Shown: piece by piece, positions 6,481-64,000 of the stretch
Numbering within the stretch: the first letter of the stretch is position 1
Layout: each line of letters starts with the position of its first letter
Origin: Chlamydoabsidia padenii
Lineage: Eukaryota; Mucoromycota; Mucoromycetes; Mucorales; Cunninghamellaceae
NCBI GenBank assembly: GCA_025330725.1
Contig: JAIWND010000046.1
Coordinates: 1 to 64,000 of the forward strand
Length of the DNA: 64,000 bases
Direction: 5' to 3'
Position numbers and translations under genes: made by a program
Notes under the pieces: model-generated
Told to the model about the DNA's origin: nothing
The model's database searches: none
Seen by the model: only the letters and a program-made list of their open reading frames with translations

Positions 6481-7770
6481 ATGAGCATGCAATTCCTTTA
6501 TGAAGTTGGACAGGGACATATTGTTGGTGAGCATGGAATTGAGCCCATGAATCTTGTTGTTGACGAGGAGCTATACGCTATTGAAACAATAAGTTCTCGT
6601 ACCCAATTCCTAATGAATAAACCTCCAGAGAGACAGTTAATTCCTGTAGTGCATCCAGTTGCAGATGAAAGGAACAATGATGTTGATATGGAATTATGCA
6701 ATAGGCGACGCTATACAGTTTACTCTGATGAAGACAAGACTAGATTTTTTCATTTATTTTTCAGTAAATGCTTGAATGCTTCTGCTGCTGCGAGACAATT
6801 AGGTATTCATATCCGTGCAGCGCAAAGATGGGTCAAACGTTATTACGAGGACCCTGAAAGCATCTTCGAGAAGAAGAAAAAGTCAGGTCGGCGTCGTATT
6901 CTTGGGGAGGATCATAAGCAGTTTCTTTTAAATTACATTGATGAGAATCCTTCTGCTGTTGTAACTGAAGTAGCGGAAAGTTTAATGCAAAACTTCAAGG
7001 ATCTTAATGTTTCTCGTAGCACTATTTATAACTTCATGACAACTGAGCGCAATCTATCTATTAAGCAGGCACAATTTCAGCCTGTAGAAAGAAATAGCGA
7101 AGAAAAGATTCAACAAAGGTACGATTGGGTACAAAAGTGGCAGCAAACTGATATGGATTTTACAACAAACTGTGTCTTTCTGGATGAATCAGCCTTTCAC
7201 ATTAATTTGAAACGAGGTATGGCTCGGTCAAAGAAGGGAACTCCTGCAATAGTTACAGTGTCTATGACTAAAGCGAAAGCAACATCTATTTTAGGTGCCA
7301 TATCGGCCACTGGCTTAATTAATGTTAGCTTGAGAGTTCCAAAACGTATCAAAAAGAGAAAGCTTGGACAAAGCTTGGACAAAGCGTATAGCACAGGGAC
7401 AGTAACAGGGCATTATCTGCGCTTTGTGAAAGCTACTCTTGATGAAATGGACAGATATCCAGAAATGAAGGGACATTACCTTGTCATGGATAACGCTCCT
7501 ATCCACAGCTCAACCGATATAGGGAAGTATATCAATTCTCGGGGATACCAGTATGTATATCTTCCTCCATATTCTCCTGAACTGAATCCAATCGAGCAGT
7601 TCTGGTCAGTCGTTAAGAGTAAAGTGAAACGAAATAAATTTTTGGAAAAAGAGTCACTTATGACAAGAATTAGCGAAGCATGTGATAGTTTACATATAAG
7701 TGATTTCAAAGGTTTTGTTTCTCATTCTGTTAAATGTTTTGATAAGTGTCTCAACAAAGAGAGGCTCTAA
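6481..7770 (+). CDS. Tc1/mariner (DD34E) transposase, intact
   Basis: Single uninterrupted frame of 429 codons from the ATG at 6481; the open frame upstream of it is hydrophobic junk. Order of parts: acidic N-terminus (about 1-75); helix-turn-helix with AARQLGIHIRAAQRWVKRYY (about 95-120); a second DNA-binding segment (about 140-190) with SRSTIYNFM; then the catalytic core. The triad is visible: first Asp in VFLDESAFH, second Asp in LVMDNAPIH, and Glu in ELNPIEQFW, with 34 residues between the last two, which gives DD34E. The enzyme cuts at the TIRs and integrates at TA. All residues expected for activity are present, so the protein may be functional even though the element lacks a visible right end. 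Confidence 0.92.
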   Translation: MSMQFLYEVGQGHIVGEHGIEPMNLVVDEELYAIETISSRTQFLMNKPPERQLIPVVHPVADERNNDVDMELCNRRRYTVYSDEDKTRFFHLFFSKCLNASAAARQLGIHIRAAQRWVKRYYEDPESIFEKKKKSGRRRILGEDHKQFLLNYIDENPSAVVTEVAESLMQNFKDLNVSRSTIYNFMTTERNLSIKQAQFQPVERNSEEKIQQRYDWVQKWQQTDMDFTTNCVFLDESAFHINLKRGMARSKKGTPAIVTVSMTKAKATSILGAISATGLINVSLRVPKRIKKRKLGQSLDKAYSTGTVTGHYLRFVKATLDEMDRYPEMKGHYLVMDNAPIHSSTDIGKYINSRGYQYVYLPPYSPELNPIEQFWSVVKSKVKRNKFLEKESLMTRISEACDSLHISDFKGFVSHSVKCFDKCLNKERL

Positions 7771-56031: not shown

Positions 56032-58216
56032 TCAAAGTGATTTATTAAAAAAAAAGTCCTTCCTTTTATTATGTTTATTAGTGATGGTGTCAGTGATGGT
56101 GTCCGTGCCGTTGTCGTCGCTATCATCATCACCATCATCGCTGTCGTTTGAATCCACAGGTAAGGCAATTTTAAATTGACGTAAAAGATTACCAGTAGGG
56201 CCAGGTAGGCCTTGTTGCCCTTTAAAGCTTTCGAGTATGTTTTGAATAAGGTTCAACTGTATATCAACAGGTGCATCTTCCTTTTCATTGTCATCTTGCA
56301 GTCGCTCTTCGTTCCCATCTACCTTTGCTGGTAGCTTACTTTTAACAAATGATCCGCCAATTTTTTCGTGCCCTGTAATTTCCTTATCCATTTCATACAT
56401 CAAGTCTTTGAGGTCTTTGATATCATTATGATCATCTGATGGTAGATTCGGTGATGGCTCTAACGATAATACATGGAGAATGAAATGAAAATTAAAGTAA
56501 GCAAGATCATCGTTAGGAATAATCATTTTTTCTTTTCTTTTCATGTTTACTATCGTTGCCTTGCTTGAGAATATCCATGAATGATGTGAAATCAAAGGAG
56601 ACCTGTTTGAGCATATCTTCATCAGCATCATCATGTTCAGCTTGTTCATCAACTCGATCGTCTTCAGAGTCGCTACCTTCATCACTCTTGTCTTCACTAT
56701 ATATAAGAGAGAGAGAAATATAAAAGTGGTGGGTGGTTATGGTATAATTTCGATACAAAATAATCAAGCGCACATACCTATCCATGTTGACGCCATCCAC
56801 GTTACTTGAACTATGTTCCAAAAAGTCTTCAAATTTCGCCATGATCTCTTCCAAGTTGACAGGTACATTATCGGTAGTCCCATTGCTAGTACCATTGGTG
56901 TGCGTTTTTTGTGCGAGTAAACTCTCCAATTCATCAGGGTAAATATCCATCCAATCCGTATTATCTGGGCTTTTTTCAGTAGCGTTTGTTTCCAATAGTT
57001 GCTTCAAGGCAGAGGGCGAATAGTGGACCAACAGTTCATCCATTTTTTCTCTTGGTGTCACACCACCCAGTGATGTTGGTGCCATCTCCATCAAATCAGA
57101 GGCATTGATATCATCAGTGTCATTCACGCCATTATTATTTCTATGATATTCTCGGGAATAAATCATTTCGAGACCGCACATGAGCTTCATACCCAATTCC
57201 GCCGCTTGATAAGTATCATGGTGTTTTGCCGGTAAATGAAATGCTTTAGGCGCATAAAATTGCTGGTGAAGCGCTTGTGCAAATGTGGTTCGTGTCCATG
57301 GAAGAACTGTATCAATATTAGCATCAATTGATGGTGATGGTGGGAAATGACGCATGTTAGCGCATGCTTTGAGTGATATGGGGTCCCGAAAATAAAATGC
57401 TTCCACCGCTAAAGGTAACAGCTGAGGTGCTGATAATAAAACATAGGCGGCTTTAGGGTTGAATAGGACAGTACGTGCGTGATGGAGTTCATGTTGATCC
57501 TGTTGCTGTTGACAATACTTTTGCGTCCTATCATCGATCAAGCGTTGTATATCATCACTTGCAACTGTGCTCGTGCCAGAGATTTGTTGTTGCTGCCAAA
57601 TAATATTGATAGATTCCTGTCGTGATAGTGCATTTTTACTAGCTGTAGTTCCATTAGACGACATAAAATTGAATATACCTGCAGGTGATTTTGGGAGTGG
57701 TATAATATGAAGCTTGTCTTGATATATGTATACCCGATTGTCACTGTTACTTGGATCCAGCCACTCTGGAAGTGCCGAAGCGGCTTCAATGAGTAAAAAT
57801 TCTCCATCATTGTCAGCCACTGCAATAATTGCGTCTTTCAAAAGTTTAGATACTTGATACAATATATAAACGATAAACCACTCATCATTAATACAGTCAC
57901 CAAAACGTGAGAAACCGAATAGAAATGGAAACGATGGATCTTTAAAAAGTGAAAAAGAAATGAGTATATCAGTAAAGAGGTTGGGCGGGGATTTACCTTT
58001 TCGATCGTTGTGAACTATGCGTAGCTTGAAATTGTCTGTTTGCCATAAATGCCCATTGATGATGGGTTCGATCAATGACTCGATCTGTCGTTTTGAATTA
58101 TGCAATGTTTCGATGGTTGCCTCCTTTGAACTTTTTGGAGGGAAGAATATTGAATATTCTATATAGTTAATTCCGGTGTGATTGGTGTGGCTAAATATAT
58201 CCTTTATAGAATCCAT
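56032..58216 (-). CDS. ECD: Ecdysoneless/SGT1-domain protein
   Basis: Four exons on the minus strand: 58216-57997, 57939-56778, 56696-56551, 56459-56032 (1956 nt, 651 aa), in phase. The first ATG is at 58216. The N-terminal part reads YSIFFPP (residues 21-27), then FSRFGDCINDEWFIVYILYQ, AASALPEWLDPSNSDNRVYI and LHIIPLPKSP, the order of the SGT1/ecdysoneless family (not the co-chaperone Sgt1). The C-terminal third is very acidic with two conserved short helices, FDFTSFMDILKQ and DLKDLMYEMDKEI. ECD proteins bind PRPF8/spliceosome factors and R2TP in animals and complement transcriptional defects in yeasts; a role in U5 snRNP maturation is the likely function here. Length is typical (about 600-680). 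Confidence 0.92.
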
Positions 58217-58402
58217 GCGTACTGTCACGTTGTGAAGAAAGAACAAGTTCAAGCCCCTTTTCTTCCTTTTGGTGAGCGCTTTGATGGGACATGGAAACCG
58301 AAATTCCCATTCCGAGAAACACCTATATCAACGCCCCCCTGAAAAAACACGGACGCGGGATTTGAATTGATTTTTTTATATACGTATTTTAACTTGAATT
58401 TG
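58217..58402. other. ECD 5' region
   Basis: Upstream region of the minus-strand ECD gene. No TATA box assigned; the left flank of the Fanzor locus starts near here. Confidence 0.4.
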
Positions 58403-58569
58403 AGACAGCGTCATTTTTATTTTCAGACAGTGTGAATTAAAAGTTTTAGACGGAGTTACATAATTTTTTGAGACGGAGCGGAGATAAATTTTAGACACTT
58501 TGAAATTTATATTTTTAGACAGATGAATATGCAAAGTGGGCGCCAAAAAAAAAAAAAAAATAGAGACAA
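58403..58569. repeat. Phased AGACRG repeat array (~23-bp spacing)
   Basis: AGAC followed mostly by AG or GG occurs at 58403, 58425, 58448, 58471, 58493, 58517 and 58564. The spacings are 22, 23, 23, 22, 24 and 47 bp, the last being twice the unit. The motif is usually preceded by TTT. Sequence between copies is not conserved. Confidence 0.75.
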
Positions 58570-58770
58570 GGTAGCGGCATAAACCGGGAATTGAAAAGCA
58601 GATCAGCACCAACCAACGATAATATCAGTTGATTTGAATTTGTTTACATTTTAAACTCAACAATCAATGAAAAGGAACCTCAAGAAATTATTCTTGAAGA
58701 CCACCTGTAATCTTTAATAGGCCTACAACACCAAACTGAAGTACTCCAGCCATTGCAAAGCTACGGTGGT
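58570..58770. other. Spacer upstream of the Fanzor reading frame
   Basis: AT-rich. A possible extra 5' exon may lie at about 58664-58715, but no splice pair is convincing. Confidence 0.4.
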
Positions 58771-60371
58771 ATGTCCGTCAAGGATATAATATTGTACAAA
58801 AAGCGCTTCAAAAACCAAGCCATACTTTTAAGAAAAGGTAAGTGTTATGCAATTTGGAATGAAGAACATGATCATTTTTGCTAACCTCTTTTTCTTTTTG
58901 AAAAAACAAATATACATAGCACGACGGGTACTTGATCAACGTATTGACTCTGGCAGTGACGACGGTGATGGCAGTGGTGAAGACTTGGACGACAATGTTT
59001 CCAATCCATCGGTGTCTTCGGCGTCCACAAGAGGCTCTTCCTCTAGACAACTGGCTGGCTCGAAACGCAAGCGCAAGCAAACAATTGGTGAAAAGTCGGC
59101 CAAAGGCGCAGCTAATCAACAACGAAAGAGTCTTTCCAGCAAGAAGTCACTGAAGCCTTGCACAGCATGTATCAACCACAATCGACTCGACACAGCTTAC
59201 AGCCACACTCGAACCACCAACTCTCTTTGTCCTGTCCCTTATATGTTGGCACAGCAGCAGCAGCAACAACAACAGCAACAAGAACACCAAGAGGAACACC
59301 AAGAGGAACACCAACAGGGACACCAACAGGAACAAGAACAACAACAACAACAAGGACAACAGCAACAACGGCCAACAACAACGATCACCCGGAAAATTGG
59401 ATTAAGATCAGTATTGAATATCGACAATCTAAATAATCATGAACGTATCCTGAACGGAATCAACGAGGTGGTTGTCTTCATTCGATACATTGTCATCAAA
59501 GCGCACCTATTTGTCACCTATTTTGTATACAGCAATCTGGATAACGGCAGACCTGTTCCAAAACAGCTTTTTACCAAAAGTTTCTTCTATGCGGTCTACC
59601 AACTTATAATTGGTGGTAAAATATCTGTCAACAATACTATCAGTCAACAACTGGCAACAAAAATACATCACTCTAATCAGCAAATGAATCCAACTGCAGA
59701 CCGTATGGCAGTTTTCAATGTCCAAAAGATTCACGGTGGTATAGCGTATTCTCATTGTACTGCAACTATCTTCGACCATTACGCGACTCTCCTTACGAAT
59801 CGGATAACTGAAGAAATGATGCAATGGATGGCAAATATCTACTCATTACGATTACGAGAACGACAAACACAGCCACAACAACAGCAACGACCGGAATTTG
59901 ATCTTCAACATGGACTGCGTCATGAAGAGGAACAACAGCATCATCAACAACAACAGCAATATCAACTAGAATTGCTACAACAACACCAGTCGCAAAGCCA
60001 ATACTATCTTCAGCAGCAACAATACCATCAGGTTCAACAGAACTATCATCAAGATCAGCAGCGGCAGCATCGACAGCAGCAGCAAAACCACAAAGATCAA
60101 CAACAGCAGCATCAACAGCGACAGCAACATGATGATGAAAGGTCACAACAACATCATCAGCAATAGGGTGGATATCATCAACAACAGAGCCAATATCACC
60201 AAGATCAACTTCGTTATCATGAAATGCAAGAACAACACCATAATGATCAGCAGGCGTATCATCAAGAGCAAGATCAGTATTGTCAACAACAGCAAGAGCA
60301 TCACAATCTACAGGAACGACATCACCAGCAACAACAACAGTATCATGAGCGCCAAAGTCAATACCACCATG

Positions 60372-60403
<32 letters not shown>

Positions 60404-62297
60404 ACCAATGTAAGTGGTGCAATAAAAATATCAGGTAAATGGATATGTAACTCACAGATTGCCAAATTTTATTTAAAGGTACTGACAAAAAGTGACTGTG
60501 GCAAGTTTGGGCTCTACATTCTAGAATGCTGCATGAATGACACCAAGGCCCCCCCGGTATTTCCAGTCCATCTCTCAGATCTCTCGAATACTGAAGAAGT
60601 CAATAACGACATTATTTACATCATGGAAGAAGCTGACGTCGACCTTCTGACTATCTTCAACTTTGCGGAACTCCAACAACTTTCTGATAACAGTGCACGA
60701 ATGATCGAAGAACACTACCACACGCTACACCAACGAATCATACATTTGGGAGATGGATTACGCGCCGTCATGAATACTTCTCTTGATCGAATTAACCAGC
60801 TATCACGAATGCCACCAGCAAGCATTACCAGTGGAATATATTTTGCCTTGGAACAGATATCTCAATCTCTTCTGAATTTACTTCGATTACATCAAGAAGC
60901 CGTGGCATTACTTCAAATGGTATCAAATGATTTGGATCTTCAATTCCGGTTATATGATGAACGCTGGTCAGCCACACAAGTGCAATATTTGATTGCACAA
61001 CTACCGGTCAATATTCGAAATCTGGAACACATTATTCAGCAAAATCATTCACTACAAATGTTGGACATGGAAACGACAGAACTGTGTGATCTAATGTACA
61101 TACTGACCATGCAATCCCCCCCCCAATGATGGACAACCTGCGTAACAACCATATTCAACACCAACAACTAAACCAAGGGTACGAAGTGGCACGGCAAATT
61201 TATTTTGAAAACAATGCACTAGGTGATCGGGGCATCCTGGAACGAATATTGGAACAATATCGACTATCCGGCGTAGACATAATCTCGGATCAAACTCGCC
61301 CAGCACTCACAACCGACTATATCTCACGCCACTGCGATATTTTTAGGAAATACGCTTACAAAATCAGTTTGCATATCAACAGCCACAATACAAATCAACT
61401 GCAGGAAGCCAATCCCATCCAAACGATAGTCCCACGATCATGGGCTTATGAACAGATTCGACTACTCGATGAATTCAACAGTATGGGACGACAACGGCGG
61501 GCATCTTTGGTCAACTCAGTCATTAATATTATTCCGGAAACTGGTACCTTGAACCGACAGCGTTTGTAATTTCTATCTGACCAATCTTTCAGGCAGCTTG
61601 AAGAATTGGTTGATGAAACTCGACGGCGCTTACATTGCTCAATGGAATACTTGCACGACCCTCAACAAAACGCGCATCTTCTTCAGCCATGCTTTCGACC
61701 AGTATTAGACCACATCGTTAAAAAACAACAATTATTCAATCTTGTCTCGAAGTCGTCATTCAAGAAAAAATACATCAAGCTCGACAACAGCAGTATGAAA
61801 ACATTGCTTCGATCATTGGGACTTCCAGACTATATTCATAGTGATGATACTTTGTCTCGTTTGCTCGCTTTGGAAAAAGTTCGACCGCGTGATGGTTTTA
61901 TTTGGTCAAAATACATATTAACCGATGGATTCGCCACATCCATATCATTCAAGAAGCCGATCAAAACCGAAGACGCCTTGCCACGCTTGGTGTCTGAAGA
62001 CTTTGAAGATTGGGAATTCAAGTATCTGAATGTGTGGGGTGTGGATCCCGGTGTTACAAATGTGTATGTCGGTAGTAATGGCTCAAGTAATGACTTATAC
62101 AATGACTTCGTAGAAAATGAACGTAAGTGGTTATTTGATGGGGTTGTATGGAATGGGATGGAGGGTTTGTATCAAATCTCATTCGTTATTTATGTGTTCT
62201 TCTTAGGCGCTGGCGCTGGCGCTGGCGATGTGGAACGAAACGATCCTGGTGAGCATGATACTACTGAACATGATGCTACTGAACAAAATGATGGTAA

Positions 62298-62346
<49 letters not shown>

Positions 62347-63316
62347 GACGGCATTCTGACAACTGTTTTCATATTTGTATTTTTAGGTGAAAGTCATGAA
62401 ATACAAAAAATATCTTCTGTTGAATATTACATCAAAGCTGGATTCAAGATGACACTGAACAAGATAAATTCGGCCAAGACAGATGAAATTCGTACCTCTG
62501 AATCAAACATCACCACCAATAGAACCGCCAATTTACCAGGGATACAACAATACATCGATTCAACTTTAGCCGCTTTTGATCCTCTAACGAATTTCTATGG
62601 TCAGATGAATATACAAGGTCTTGATTTTTTGAACTACCAAGGACGACAACGAATGGATCATAAACTTGTGAACATGCTTGTCAATGGTGGGCAGAAGTAT
62701 CGAACTCCCCCTGGCTCTCAAGAACGATTGGACAATGTCGGCCATCAATGAAGACGAAGACGAAGACAAAGACAAAGAACAGTAACAGTCGTAGATGAAG
62801 CTATTCCTATATCTCCTATACCAAAAACAAGGTAAGACTATTTGGTTGGAATTTCACGCGCATTATATACTGATGTTTAACTGATTTTATTTTTGTTGCA
62901 TACAGAAAGTGGAAAAAGGCGCCAACTGATAACGATAACAGTAAGGTCCCCGTGGTGGTATTGGTGATGCCAATTTCGAAAGAAATCAAAAGGGTGCTGG
63001 CTCGTTGGTGGACAAGTGCCGGAAACTACTATTAGCGGCGGAGAAGGCAGGACGACTCGTTTATATCAATATGGGCGAATATCTTACTTCCCAAATATGC
63101 TCAAAATGTGGTGGACGAACTTTGGACCATAATGTGATTCCTCGGCCTGGGCAACTTGCAGAGCGTATGTATTCGGTAGCAGTGTGCAGTCACTGTTCTA
63201 CTGTTTGGCAACGCGACGTGAACGCTTCCCGGAACATGCGCACCCTATTTTTCAACATCGCCATCAATGGATATCGCCCTGGGGCTCTCACAAGACCATC
63301 TTCAACTACCAATTGA
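58771..63316 (+). pseudogene. Fanzor (eukaryotic TnpB-like RNA-guided nuclease family), polyQ-expanded and decayed
   Basis: The ATG at 58771 opens a short exon spliced (58836/58919) to a basic region, an N-terminal helical domain (about 59400-59670), three long Gln/His-rich stretches (59254-59378, 59865-60165, 60176-60405) and a helical region. Then comes the nuclease part: a SKYILTDGFATSISFKK strand region, RuvC-I in WGVDPGVTNVYVG (Asp codon 62044-62046), EYYIKAGF, GDANFERNQKGAG, GEYLTSQICSKCGG and VCSHCSTVWQRDVNASRNM. These give a CxxC/CxxC zinc ribbon (Cys codons 63098-63196), a Glu (63077-63079) and the RuvC-III Asp (63215-63217). All are hallmarks of TnpB/Fanzor. Lesions: TAG 60164, a frameshift at nine C (61116-61124), TAA 61567 (unless a 27-nt intron), TGA 62749, and a frameshift near 62960. 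Neighbouring genes are clean, so decay is real. Function as RNA-guided DNA cutting is known for other Fanzors, not shown here. Confidence 0.82.
62301..62343 (+). repeat. Poly-A tract (~43 A) inside a Fanzor intron
   Basis: In the probable intron 62295-62385 (donor GTAATT after GATG, acceptor TTTTTAG). Confidence 0.9.
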
Positions 63317-63362
63317 TTTTATCCGCATATCAAACATGCGTTGACGTTTACGACGTAAGTTG

Positions 63363-63405
<43 letters not shown>

Positions 63406-64000
63406 TATTGTACTTCATCCAGACTAACTATTTCTTATTTGTCCTTAATGGTTCCTGTCAACTGTCGTTATCTTCACTATGATCTGCCTCAATTCTTTTT
63501 TCCCATGGTCTCAATTCGATTTTCCCGCCGTCCATTTTTATCCGCCCCCATCCAATTTTTATTTTCGCCCGTCCCAAATTCTTTTTCCCCAACCCCAATT
63601 CCATTTTGTCATTGCGCAAATTTATTTTAATAAACTGTATACGTATATCACGACGGGAAAATTTTCGGCGGAGGTGCGGAGAATTCACCGTATGTACGTG
63701 ATTGAGAAGCCCCGTATGTACGGCGTGGAAAATCTGTGTGAAAAAAAAAAAAAATGATCAAAAATTAATTTTAATTAACAATTGACAGGCTCTCAACAAC
63801 AACAGCAACTGATCGACTAGCTAACACTCGAGCTATTTCAACAGATTACTCTATTACAATAACTGAAACGTAGCAACAACTTGGACCGTTAGTAAGTATA
63901 ACATTACTGAATATACAGATTGTAATCATTGCGTTGTTTTTATTTTACAACTTTGATGAGGTGTACTGAAGGACTGGGGACGAAAGTGGCGAAGTTACGG
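63317..64000. other. Right flank of the Fanzor locus
   Basis: Contains about 38 A (63365-63402), the pyrimidine-rich array at 63511-63618, two CCGTATGTACG copies (63689-63699 and 63712-63722), and a second A tract (63741-63754). No gene seen. If this was a Fanzor element, its guide-RNA scaffold would be expected just 3' of the gene, in this stretch; I cannot define one. Confidence 0.45.
63511..63618 (-). repeat. Degenerate ~21-bp tandem array
   Basis: Five units of the form (A)ATT..ATTTT(C/T)CC..CC follow each other about every 20-22 bp on the plus strand, for example AATTCGATTTTCCCGCCGTC then ATTTTTATCCGCCCCCATCC. On the minus strand they read as repeated KIxLG/GKK-like peptides, which is incidental. 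Confidence 0.65.

Follow-up and report, generated by a model that had tools for sequence, protein, structure and literature searches.

Results

Gene structure and catalytic motifs

The window analyzed here is a 64,000-nucleotide stretch of the Chlamydoabsidia padenii genome (contig JAIWND010000046.1, positions 1 to 64,000), and positions 58771 to 63316 of its plus strand hold what is, judged from its sequence, a broken multi-exon gene of the Fanzor1 type. Fanzors are eukaryotic RNA-guided nucleases, and by analogy we infer that this lineage had the same activity. We searched the C. padenii genome (34.2 Mb in 95 contigs), whose loci are given below by L-numbers and whose contigs by C-numbers, with P-numbers denoting matching NCBI proteins. 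The last exon had at least 44 genome matches at an E-value of 0.001 or better. We examined six close copies (L009, L010, L061, L038, L043, and L041) and four divergent ones (L011, L012, L042, and L064), using L009, on contig C67, as the reference paralogue for comparison of exons and introns; its synonymous divergence (dS) from the window copy was 0.018 to 0.074 over seven compared segments. The NCBI protein relatives comprised three proteins per search, and two of these searches scored only the ∼8000 candidates sharing most words. Viral contigs and phage records were searched as well and returned zero matches.

Comparison with L009 resolved the gene into six exons separated by five inferred GT-AG introns, all on the plus strand. 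The remnant of exon 1 (58771–58837) starts at the first ATG of the NCBI model P0004, the stretch holding the paralogue's start codon being absent. After intron 1 (58838–58919), exon 2 (58920–60409) encodes an N-terminal domain and Gln/His tracts, is interrupted by an in-frame stop at 60164–60166, and ends in QQQTN. Intron 2 (60410–60478) is 69 nucleotides long, stop-free, and in phase, so that frame finders read through it and the Gln/His stretch in fact ends at an exon border; the Halteromyces protein P0006 runs directly into the downstream residues. Exon 3 (60479–62122) contains the helical region, a TDG motif, and the RuvC-I aspartate, together with a frame change near 61120 and a stop at 61567. 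Intron 3 (62123–62206) is followed by a short exon 4 (62207–62293), which carries a 15-bp repeat and was placed by the paralogue comparison, and by intron 4 (62294–62386). Exon 5 (62387–62831) covers the region between RuvC-I and RuvC-II and has a stop at 62749; intron 5 (62832–62905) then leads to exon 6 (62906–63316), which has a frame change near 62960 and encodes the remaining catalytic residues, the zinc ribbon, and the stop codon. Given these five introns, the frame switching that is seen by eye partly reflects splicing and not damage.

The window copy is nevertheless dead as a protein gene, as the first-pass annotation had held: it has three in-frame stops, two frame changes, and a lost start region. 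That annotation proposed a search of the genome for an uninterrupted paralogue, and none of the copies examined was intact; every one is damaged by frame changes, stops, truncation, or internal deletion. The dN/dS ratios of 1.29 for the last exon of L009 and L010 and of 1.16 for the window copy and L009 before RuvC-I are those expected of decayed copies. The gene region also carries two pure A runs whose lengths differ among copies, one of 43 nucleotides in intron 4 (62302–62344) and one of 39 nucleotides after the stop codon (63365–63403).

Within the last exon, the frame 62945–63313 matched the Pfam zinc-ribbon domain PF07282 at 44.5 bits (E 1.7e-11; cut-off 26.3) and matched NCBIfam TnpB models below those models' cut-offs (best E 7.8e-7). 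The other four of the five plus-strand frames scanned in 58832–63313 gave no relevant family, including the frame 61570–62748, which holds the RuvC-I aspartate and on its own had no relevant match in the Pfam/NCBIfam scan. The RuvC-I Asp codon lies at 62044, within GVDPG; the relocated RuvC-II Glu codon lies at 63077, within GEYLTSQIC and six residues before a C4 zinc ribbon (CSKC at 63098, CSHC at 63185); and the RuvC-III Asp codon lies at 63215. These are the positions at which the first-pass annotation had read a Fanzor signature, and the family assignment that it drew from them is upheld by the PF07282 match in combination with the DPG, the relocated glutamate, the C4 zinc ribbon, and the final aspartate. 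All catalytic residues are intact in the window copy; L010 lacks both the RuvC-I and the RuvC-III aspartates.

According to PMC10711439, two features set Fanzors apart from ordinary TnpBs, a DPG in RuvC-I and a glutamate six residues before the zinc finger, and both are present here (GVDPG and E-YLTSQI-C). The same source gives a TDG motif in the WED domain as a Fanzor1 signature. This motif occurs as YILTDGFATS in the frame 61570–62748, and TDG is also found in P0003 and in P0006 to P0008. The spacings in the PMC10711439 search pattern, 120 to 160 residues from Asp to Glu and 12 to 18 between the CxxC pairs, are exceeded here (about 260 and 25, respectively). The Fanzor1 C-terminal motif of Bao and Jurka 2013, given in PMC3627910 as D-X(125,275)-[TS][TS]XX-C4 zinc finger-X(5,50)-RD, does accommodate the gene: ∼260 residues, counted over the exons with the breaks of the window copy ignored, separate Asp 62044 from Glu 63077, and TSQI, CxxC, CxxC, and RD follow.

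Transposon context

The sequence further indicates that the Fanzor gene is cargo of a 5.26-kb, TA-flanked element of the Tc1/mariner type spanning 58381–63639. Its left end (58381–58573, plus strand) consists of TA and a Tc1/mariner-type terminal inverted repeat with the first bases altered, recognized by its identity to the transposase-bearing locus L033 (27/27 terminal bases and 142/153 inner bases, or 93%). The inverted repeats of L033 itself have arms of 167 and 44 nucleotides, and its DDE_3 transposase (E 5.6e-18) is divided between two frames; in L034 a single 261-residue frame includes all three catalytic regions, with a D-34-E spacing counted by eye. Used as a query, the left end found 18 genome matches, eight of which form four inverted pairs ∼1.75 to 1.82 kb apart (on C54, C86, C10, and C45). 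In L009, 29-bp inverted repeats (90% complementary) are bounded by TA at both ends, and both termini are present in the divergent L011 too. The window copy retains TA at 58381 and 63638; its right end (63486–63639, plus strand) is pyrimidine-rich and terminates in ATAAACTGTA, and with the left terminus altered and part of the terminal repeat of L009 missing on the right, no inverted-repeat pair of 24 or more was found. Since no DDE transposase of its own was seen among the five plus-strand frames scanned, we filed the element as non-autonomous. Fanzor1 genes in Tc1/mariner elements that share their repeats with transposase-bearing elements were described in 2013 (PMC3627910).

We also considered the possibility that the Gln/His-rich N-terminal half belongs to a separate host gene lying beside a Fanzor fragment. 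The stand-alone NCBI protein P0004, which has 437 residues and matches the window's own N-terminal half (58771–60163), speaks for this, but L009 holds both halves between the same inverted repeats, and the 902-residue P0006 from Halteromyces is a single protein that has RuvC-I as well as the N-terminal domain and a short Q-rich linker. We therefore rejected a separate host gene, which we regard as exceedingly improbable.

The left end of the element is directly adjoined by a gene for an SGT1-family protein on the minus strand (56516–58327; PF07093, E 4.5e-94), and a ribosomal protein L14/L23e gene (L009:434–697, minus strand; PF00238, E 1.5e-22) lies near the L009 copy. Elsewhere in the window, an open frame of 450 residues includes a Tc1-type DDE_3 transposase (7000–7764, plus strand; E 4.2e-26) that is 41% identical to the transposase of an element sharing the ends of the Fanzor element. 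Just outside the left repeat of the L033 element is an open frame that by eye resembles a Fanzor C terminus (L033:461–895, plus strand).

The Gln/His-rich linker

Two Gln-rich regions were delimited in exon 2: tract 1 (59252–59368; 39 codons), which is absent from the Halteromyces proteins P0005 and P0006, and a Gln/His-rich linker N-terminal to the helical domain (59870–60409; 180 codons), which ends at intron 2 and includes a pure CAA run at 60374–60403. Three tracts had been described in the first-pass annotation; they are real, but the second and third are one continuous stretch cut by the TAG at 60164–60166. Counting both frames together, the Gln/His codons are CAA (99), CAG (42), CAT (27), and CAC (20), and the longest pure CAA/CAG runs in the tracts of the window copy reach 10 codons, which makes this a mixed Gln/His sequence and not a simple CAG expansion.

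The linker block is nearly the same, residue for residue, in the paralogues L009, L010, and L061. A Q-rich stretch occupies the same site in the divergent L011, whose identity over two coding pieces is 47 to 56%, as well as in P0005 and P0006 of Halteromyces radiatus, the former with over 100 Q-rich residues and the latter with a stretch of 32. The corresponding site in the Apophysomyces protein P0008 consists of 17 residues and lacks a Q tract, and C. padenii L064 has no Q-rich stretch either. A Q-rich linker is thus present in four of the six lineages scored (the window family, L011, P0005, and P0006, but not P0008 or L064); P0003 and P0007, which start after the linker, and L062, which has no anchor, were left out of the scoring. 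Frames of at least 110 residues near the distant Fanzors L013, L037, and L044 to L048 contain no Gln/His-rich block.

The proposal in the first-pass annotation that CAG/CAA expansion had remodelled this copy before or during its decay is mostly not supported, as L009, L010, and L061 share the block, and de novo repeat growth in the window copy was rejected for the same reason. Repeat growth does describe the pure CAA run, which has 10.7 units in the window and 63.7 in L009 and is reduced to three Gln codons in L010 and L061; this run is a length-unstable microsatellite of about 3 to 64 units among the copies. It does not describe the mixed Gln/His block, given the third-position changes and whole-codon indels reported below. 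The linker looks like an inherited part of this Fanzor lineage and not a product of the decay of the window copy.

Whether the linker changed as a coding sequence was assessed mainly on one pair, L009 and L010, which is the pair with enough changes. Changes at codon positions 1, 2, and 3 numbered 6, 5, and 21 in the linker and 71, 54, and 80 in the core (Fisher p 0.0066, a guide only, as codon composition differs between linker and core). Linker codons with a single change comprised 15 synonymous and 13 nonsynonymous cases, and synonymous changes exceeded expectation at every kappa tried (1, 2, 3, 4, and 6; largest p 0.010). When the same codons were read in the two shifted frames, the ratios were 3:25 and 5:22 and the synonymous excess was absent. 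At a kappa of 3, omega was about 0.30 for the linker and 0.55 for the core, and over kappa values from 1 to 6 it ranged from 0.17 to 0.39 and from 0.42 to 0.63, respectively; the stretch of intron 4 used to gauge kappa includes an A run and showed 2 transitions and 11 transversions. Gaps in the linker among L009, L010, and L061 were whole codons in all three pairs, in an alignment of translated sequences from frames that are uninterrupted across the linker. Both the third-position bias and the whole-codon indels are expected of a stretch that was once translated.

An alternative is that the tracts grew neutrally, as microsatellites of a selfish gene that was dying, and never had a role in the protein. 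The pure CAA run, with its range of ∼3 to 64 units and the frame change that it carries in L009, would fit this, as would L038, where an in-frame junction of tract 1 with the end of tract 3 has removed the intervening domain and looks like recombination between repeats. The window has four more sites (26249, 34903, 46232, and 53718) with runs of at least seven CAA/CAG units on either strand, and neither L064 nor the long frames near the distant Fanzors listed above have the block. Neutral growth is, however, difficult to reconcile with mixed-block residues that are nearly identical across copies, with whole-codon indels in three pairs, with changes that fall mostly at third positions, and with the recurrence of Q-rich stretches at this exon border in a second genus, and we consider it unlikely.

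The conserved right-end block

A noncoding block follows the stop codon (63317–63485, plus strand), split by the A run into 63317–63363 and 63403–63485. Over the second part, the window copy or L009 is 0.84 to 0.90 identical to L011, L012, and L042, against an identity of 0.44 to 0.51 to L011 or L012 at codon position 3 of the last exon. For L009 and L011 in particular, identity was 67/79 (0.85) in the block, 60/136 (0.44) at codon position 3, and 75/132 (0.57) in the inner left end, and because the inner left end is so much less alike, the block does not reflect a general conservation of transposon ends. The same holds within the second clade, where L011 and L012 are 0.95 identical in the block and 0.74 at codon position 3.

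Six copies of the block are present in the genome, and a 50-nucleotide piece of it was found in 6 of 25 loci (the window, L009, L011, L012, L041, and L042). It was not found, at up to 14 edits in 50, in L033 to L036, which bear the terminal inverted repeats without this Fanzor. L041 is a gene-less element of 372 bp (L041:2158–2529, minus strand) in which ∼16 nucleotides of the left terminus and the final portion of the coding sequence are joined to the block and the right terminus. Among the copies without the block, truncation or rearrangement affects L061 and L038, the divergence of L010 begins immediately past the A run, and the right end of L043 is only 69% alike. No known Rfam RNA was accepted in 58000–64000, where the one match at E ≤0.5 was to SNORD94 (minus strand, 62384–62519), at 23.9 bits against a cut-off of 60.

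Discussion

Taken together, we think it very likely that the element is a non-autonomous Tc1/mariner-type transposon carrying a Fanzor1 gene with an old, translated Gln/His linker and a conserved right end, and that the window holds a dead copy of it. The first-pass annotation recognized the Fanzor and its decay but missed the introns, the ends of the transposon, and the right-end block. As the ends are shared with L033-type elements, working ancestors were probably moved in trans, at TA sites, by the DD34E transposase of such elements. The Fanzor1 protein would have carried an RNA transcribed from the right end into the flanking DNA and would have cut sequence that matched this flank, for instance the empty site that excision leaves behind, with repair then restoring the transposon; RNA-guided cutting of the flank is suggested by work on TnpB and Fanzor proteins (PMC10432273 and PMC10711439). 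The linker, which is probably old, once translated, and kept at the protein level apart from its length-unstable CAA part, lies between the N-terminal and the helical domain and may be either a passive spacer or a binding module.

Several observations weigh against parts of this reading. The solved Guillardia Fanzor1 was matched only weakly (E 0.38), and no solved structure was matched by a profile built on the N-terminal and helical parts. An AlphaFold2 model of the Halteromyces protein P0006, built from nine sequences, had a mean predicted local distance difference test score of 51.4, with parts of the helical region at 70 to 87, and because the model is poor, the domain names in the N-terminal and helical parts rest on position. 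Swaps between CAA and CAG account for 10 of the 15 synonymous linker changes, and slippage could mimic these. The 50-nucleotide piece of the right-end block was not found in the Fanzor copies L010, L038, L043, and L061. Folding of the right end was no better than that of shuffled sequences (z between 1.61 and −1.56 over 16 pieces), and the last 85 to 107 nucleotides yielded no consensus pairs; a suggested helix set reached 94.2% paired cells, a level equalled in 80 of 500 shuffles, and for the longest ungapped helix that the two conserved blocks can form with each other, 95 to 263 of 300 shuffles of each sequence did as well. Finally, Fanzor1 guide RNAs of three species are given as 75 to 150 nucleotides long (PMC11423790) and are described as reaching past the terminus (PMC10432273), and the block lies farther from the terminus than those RNAs of three species do.

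These results bear on what the right-end block is. By its conservation it is a candidate for a guide-RNA region or a promoter, and RNA folding neither supports nor excludes this. It could instead be a transposase-binding or expression element, such as an mRNA 3′ end signal or a guide-RNA promoter, that is no part of the guide RNA, as might be expected where a convincing RNA fold was not found and where the block ends about 95 to 200 nucleotides inside the terminus. On the other hand, the block was not found in the repeat-bearing loci L033 to L036, is far better conserved than the left end, and was kept in the 372-bp gene-less element. We regard a binding or expression element as quite conceivable, if rather short of probable.

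That Fanzor1 genes occur in mariner elements and in Mucorales is already known. The present element resembles the Fanzor1 elements of Bao and Jurka in its C-terminal motif, its TA sites, and its repeats shared with transposase-bearing mariner elements, and some of the elements in PMC3627910 likewise hold a Fanzor only. The hosts listed there include Mucor, Rhizopus, and Phycomyces, but the Mucorales elements that are named (ROr-4, PBl-3, and MCi-4) are of the MuDR type and not mariner, and a Gln/His-rich linker is not described in the available portions of that paper. In the SpuFz1 element of Spizellomyces punctatus, the Fanzor1 RNA is encoded between the stop codon and the right inverted repeat, and gene-less ghost elements, which L041 resembles, keep that region (PMC10432273). 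As reported in the same source, the SpuFz1 element is ∼2.1 kb long with a single open reading frame and a 75-nucleotide scaffold, whereas here there are six exons in 5.26 kb, the conserved block lies farther from the terminus, and one gene-less element was seen.

The closest parallel for the linker is PpFz1 of Parasitella parasitica, another Mucorales Fanzor1 with a lineage-specific insertion (PMC11423790). As described there, however, that insertion is a cyclophilin-binding domain within RuvC, whereas the present one is a low-complexity Gln/His stretch upstream of the helical region; if the linker is host-facing, it may parallel the Parasitella insertion. In the open literature, with subscription papers and supplements outside the search, we found nothing on a Fanzor with a glutamine-rich or polyglutamine stretch, or on a Fanzor with Tc1 in fungi, what was found on Fanzors and low-complexity sequence concerns Borg elements, and what was found on Fanzors in Mucorales describes this different insertion (PMC11423790, in the parts available). 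More speculatively, in a Fanzor1 family of the Cunninghamellaceae a Gln/His-rich low-complexity domain under selection, up to ∼180 residues long and tuned in length by CAA instability, might have evolved at one exon border, and it might work as a host-facing module that tethers the nuclease, for example, to condensates or to the machinery of transcription or repair; we hold this fuller proposal to be doubtful. Accessory insertions in Fanzors are poorly understood, and a Q-rich linker at one site in two genera, with signs of constraint at the protein level, presents a testable domain. For a Mucorales Fanzor with several exons, the right-end block likewise marks a specific region in which to seek the guide RNA.

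In the copies described here, shared ends connect three kinds of element: one with the Fanzor, one without a gene, and one with a transposase. Two further observations concern the copies themselves. A piece of a second, different Fanzor, with WGIDPG and TDG read by eye, lies downstream of the L010 copy (L010:7194–7769, plus strand), which suggests nesting of Fanzor elements. L043 is 81% identical to L009 before RuvC-I and 53% identical to the window copy in the last exon, and its right end has diverged; it is possibly a chimera of two Fanzor lineages.

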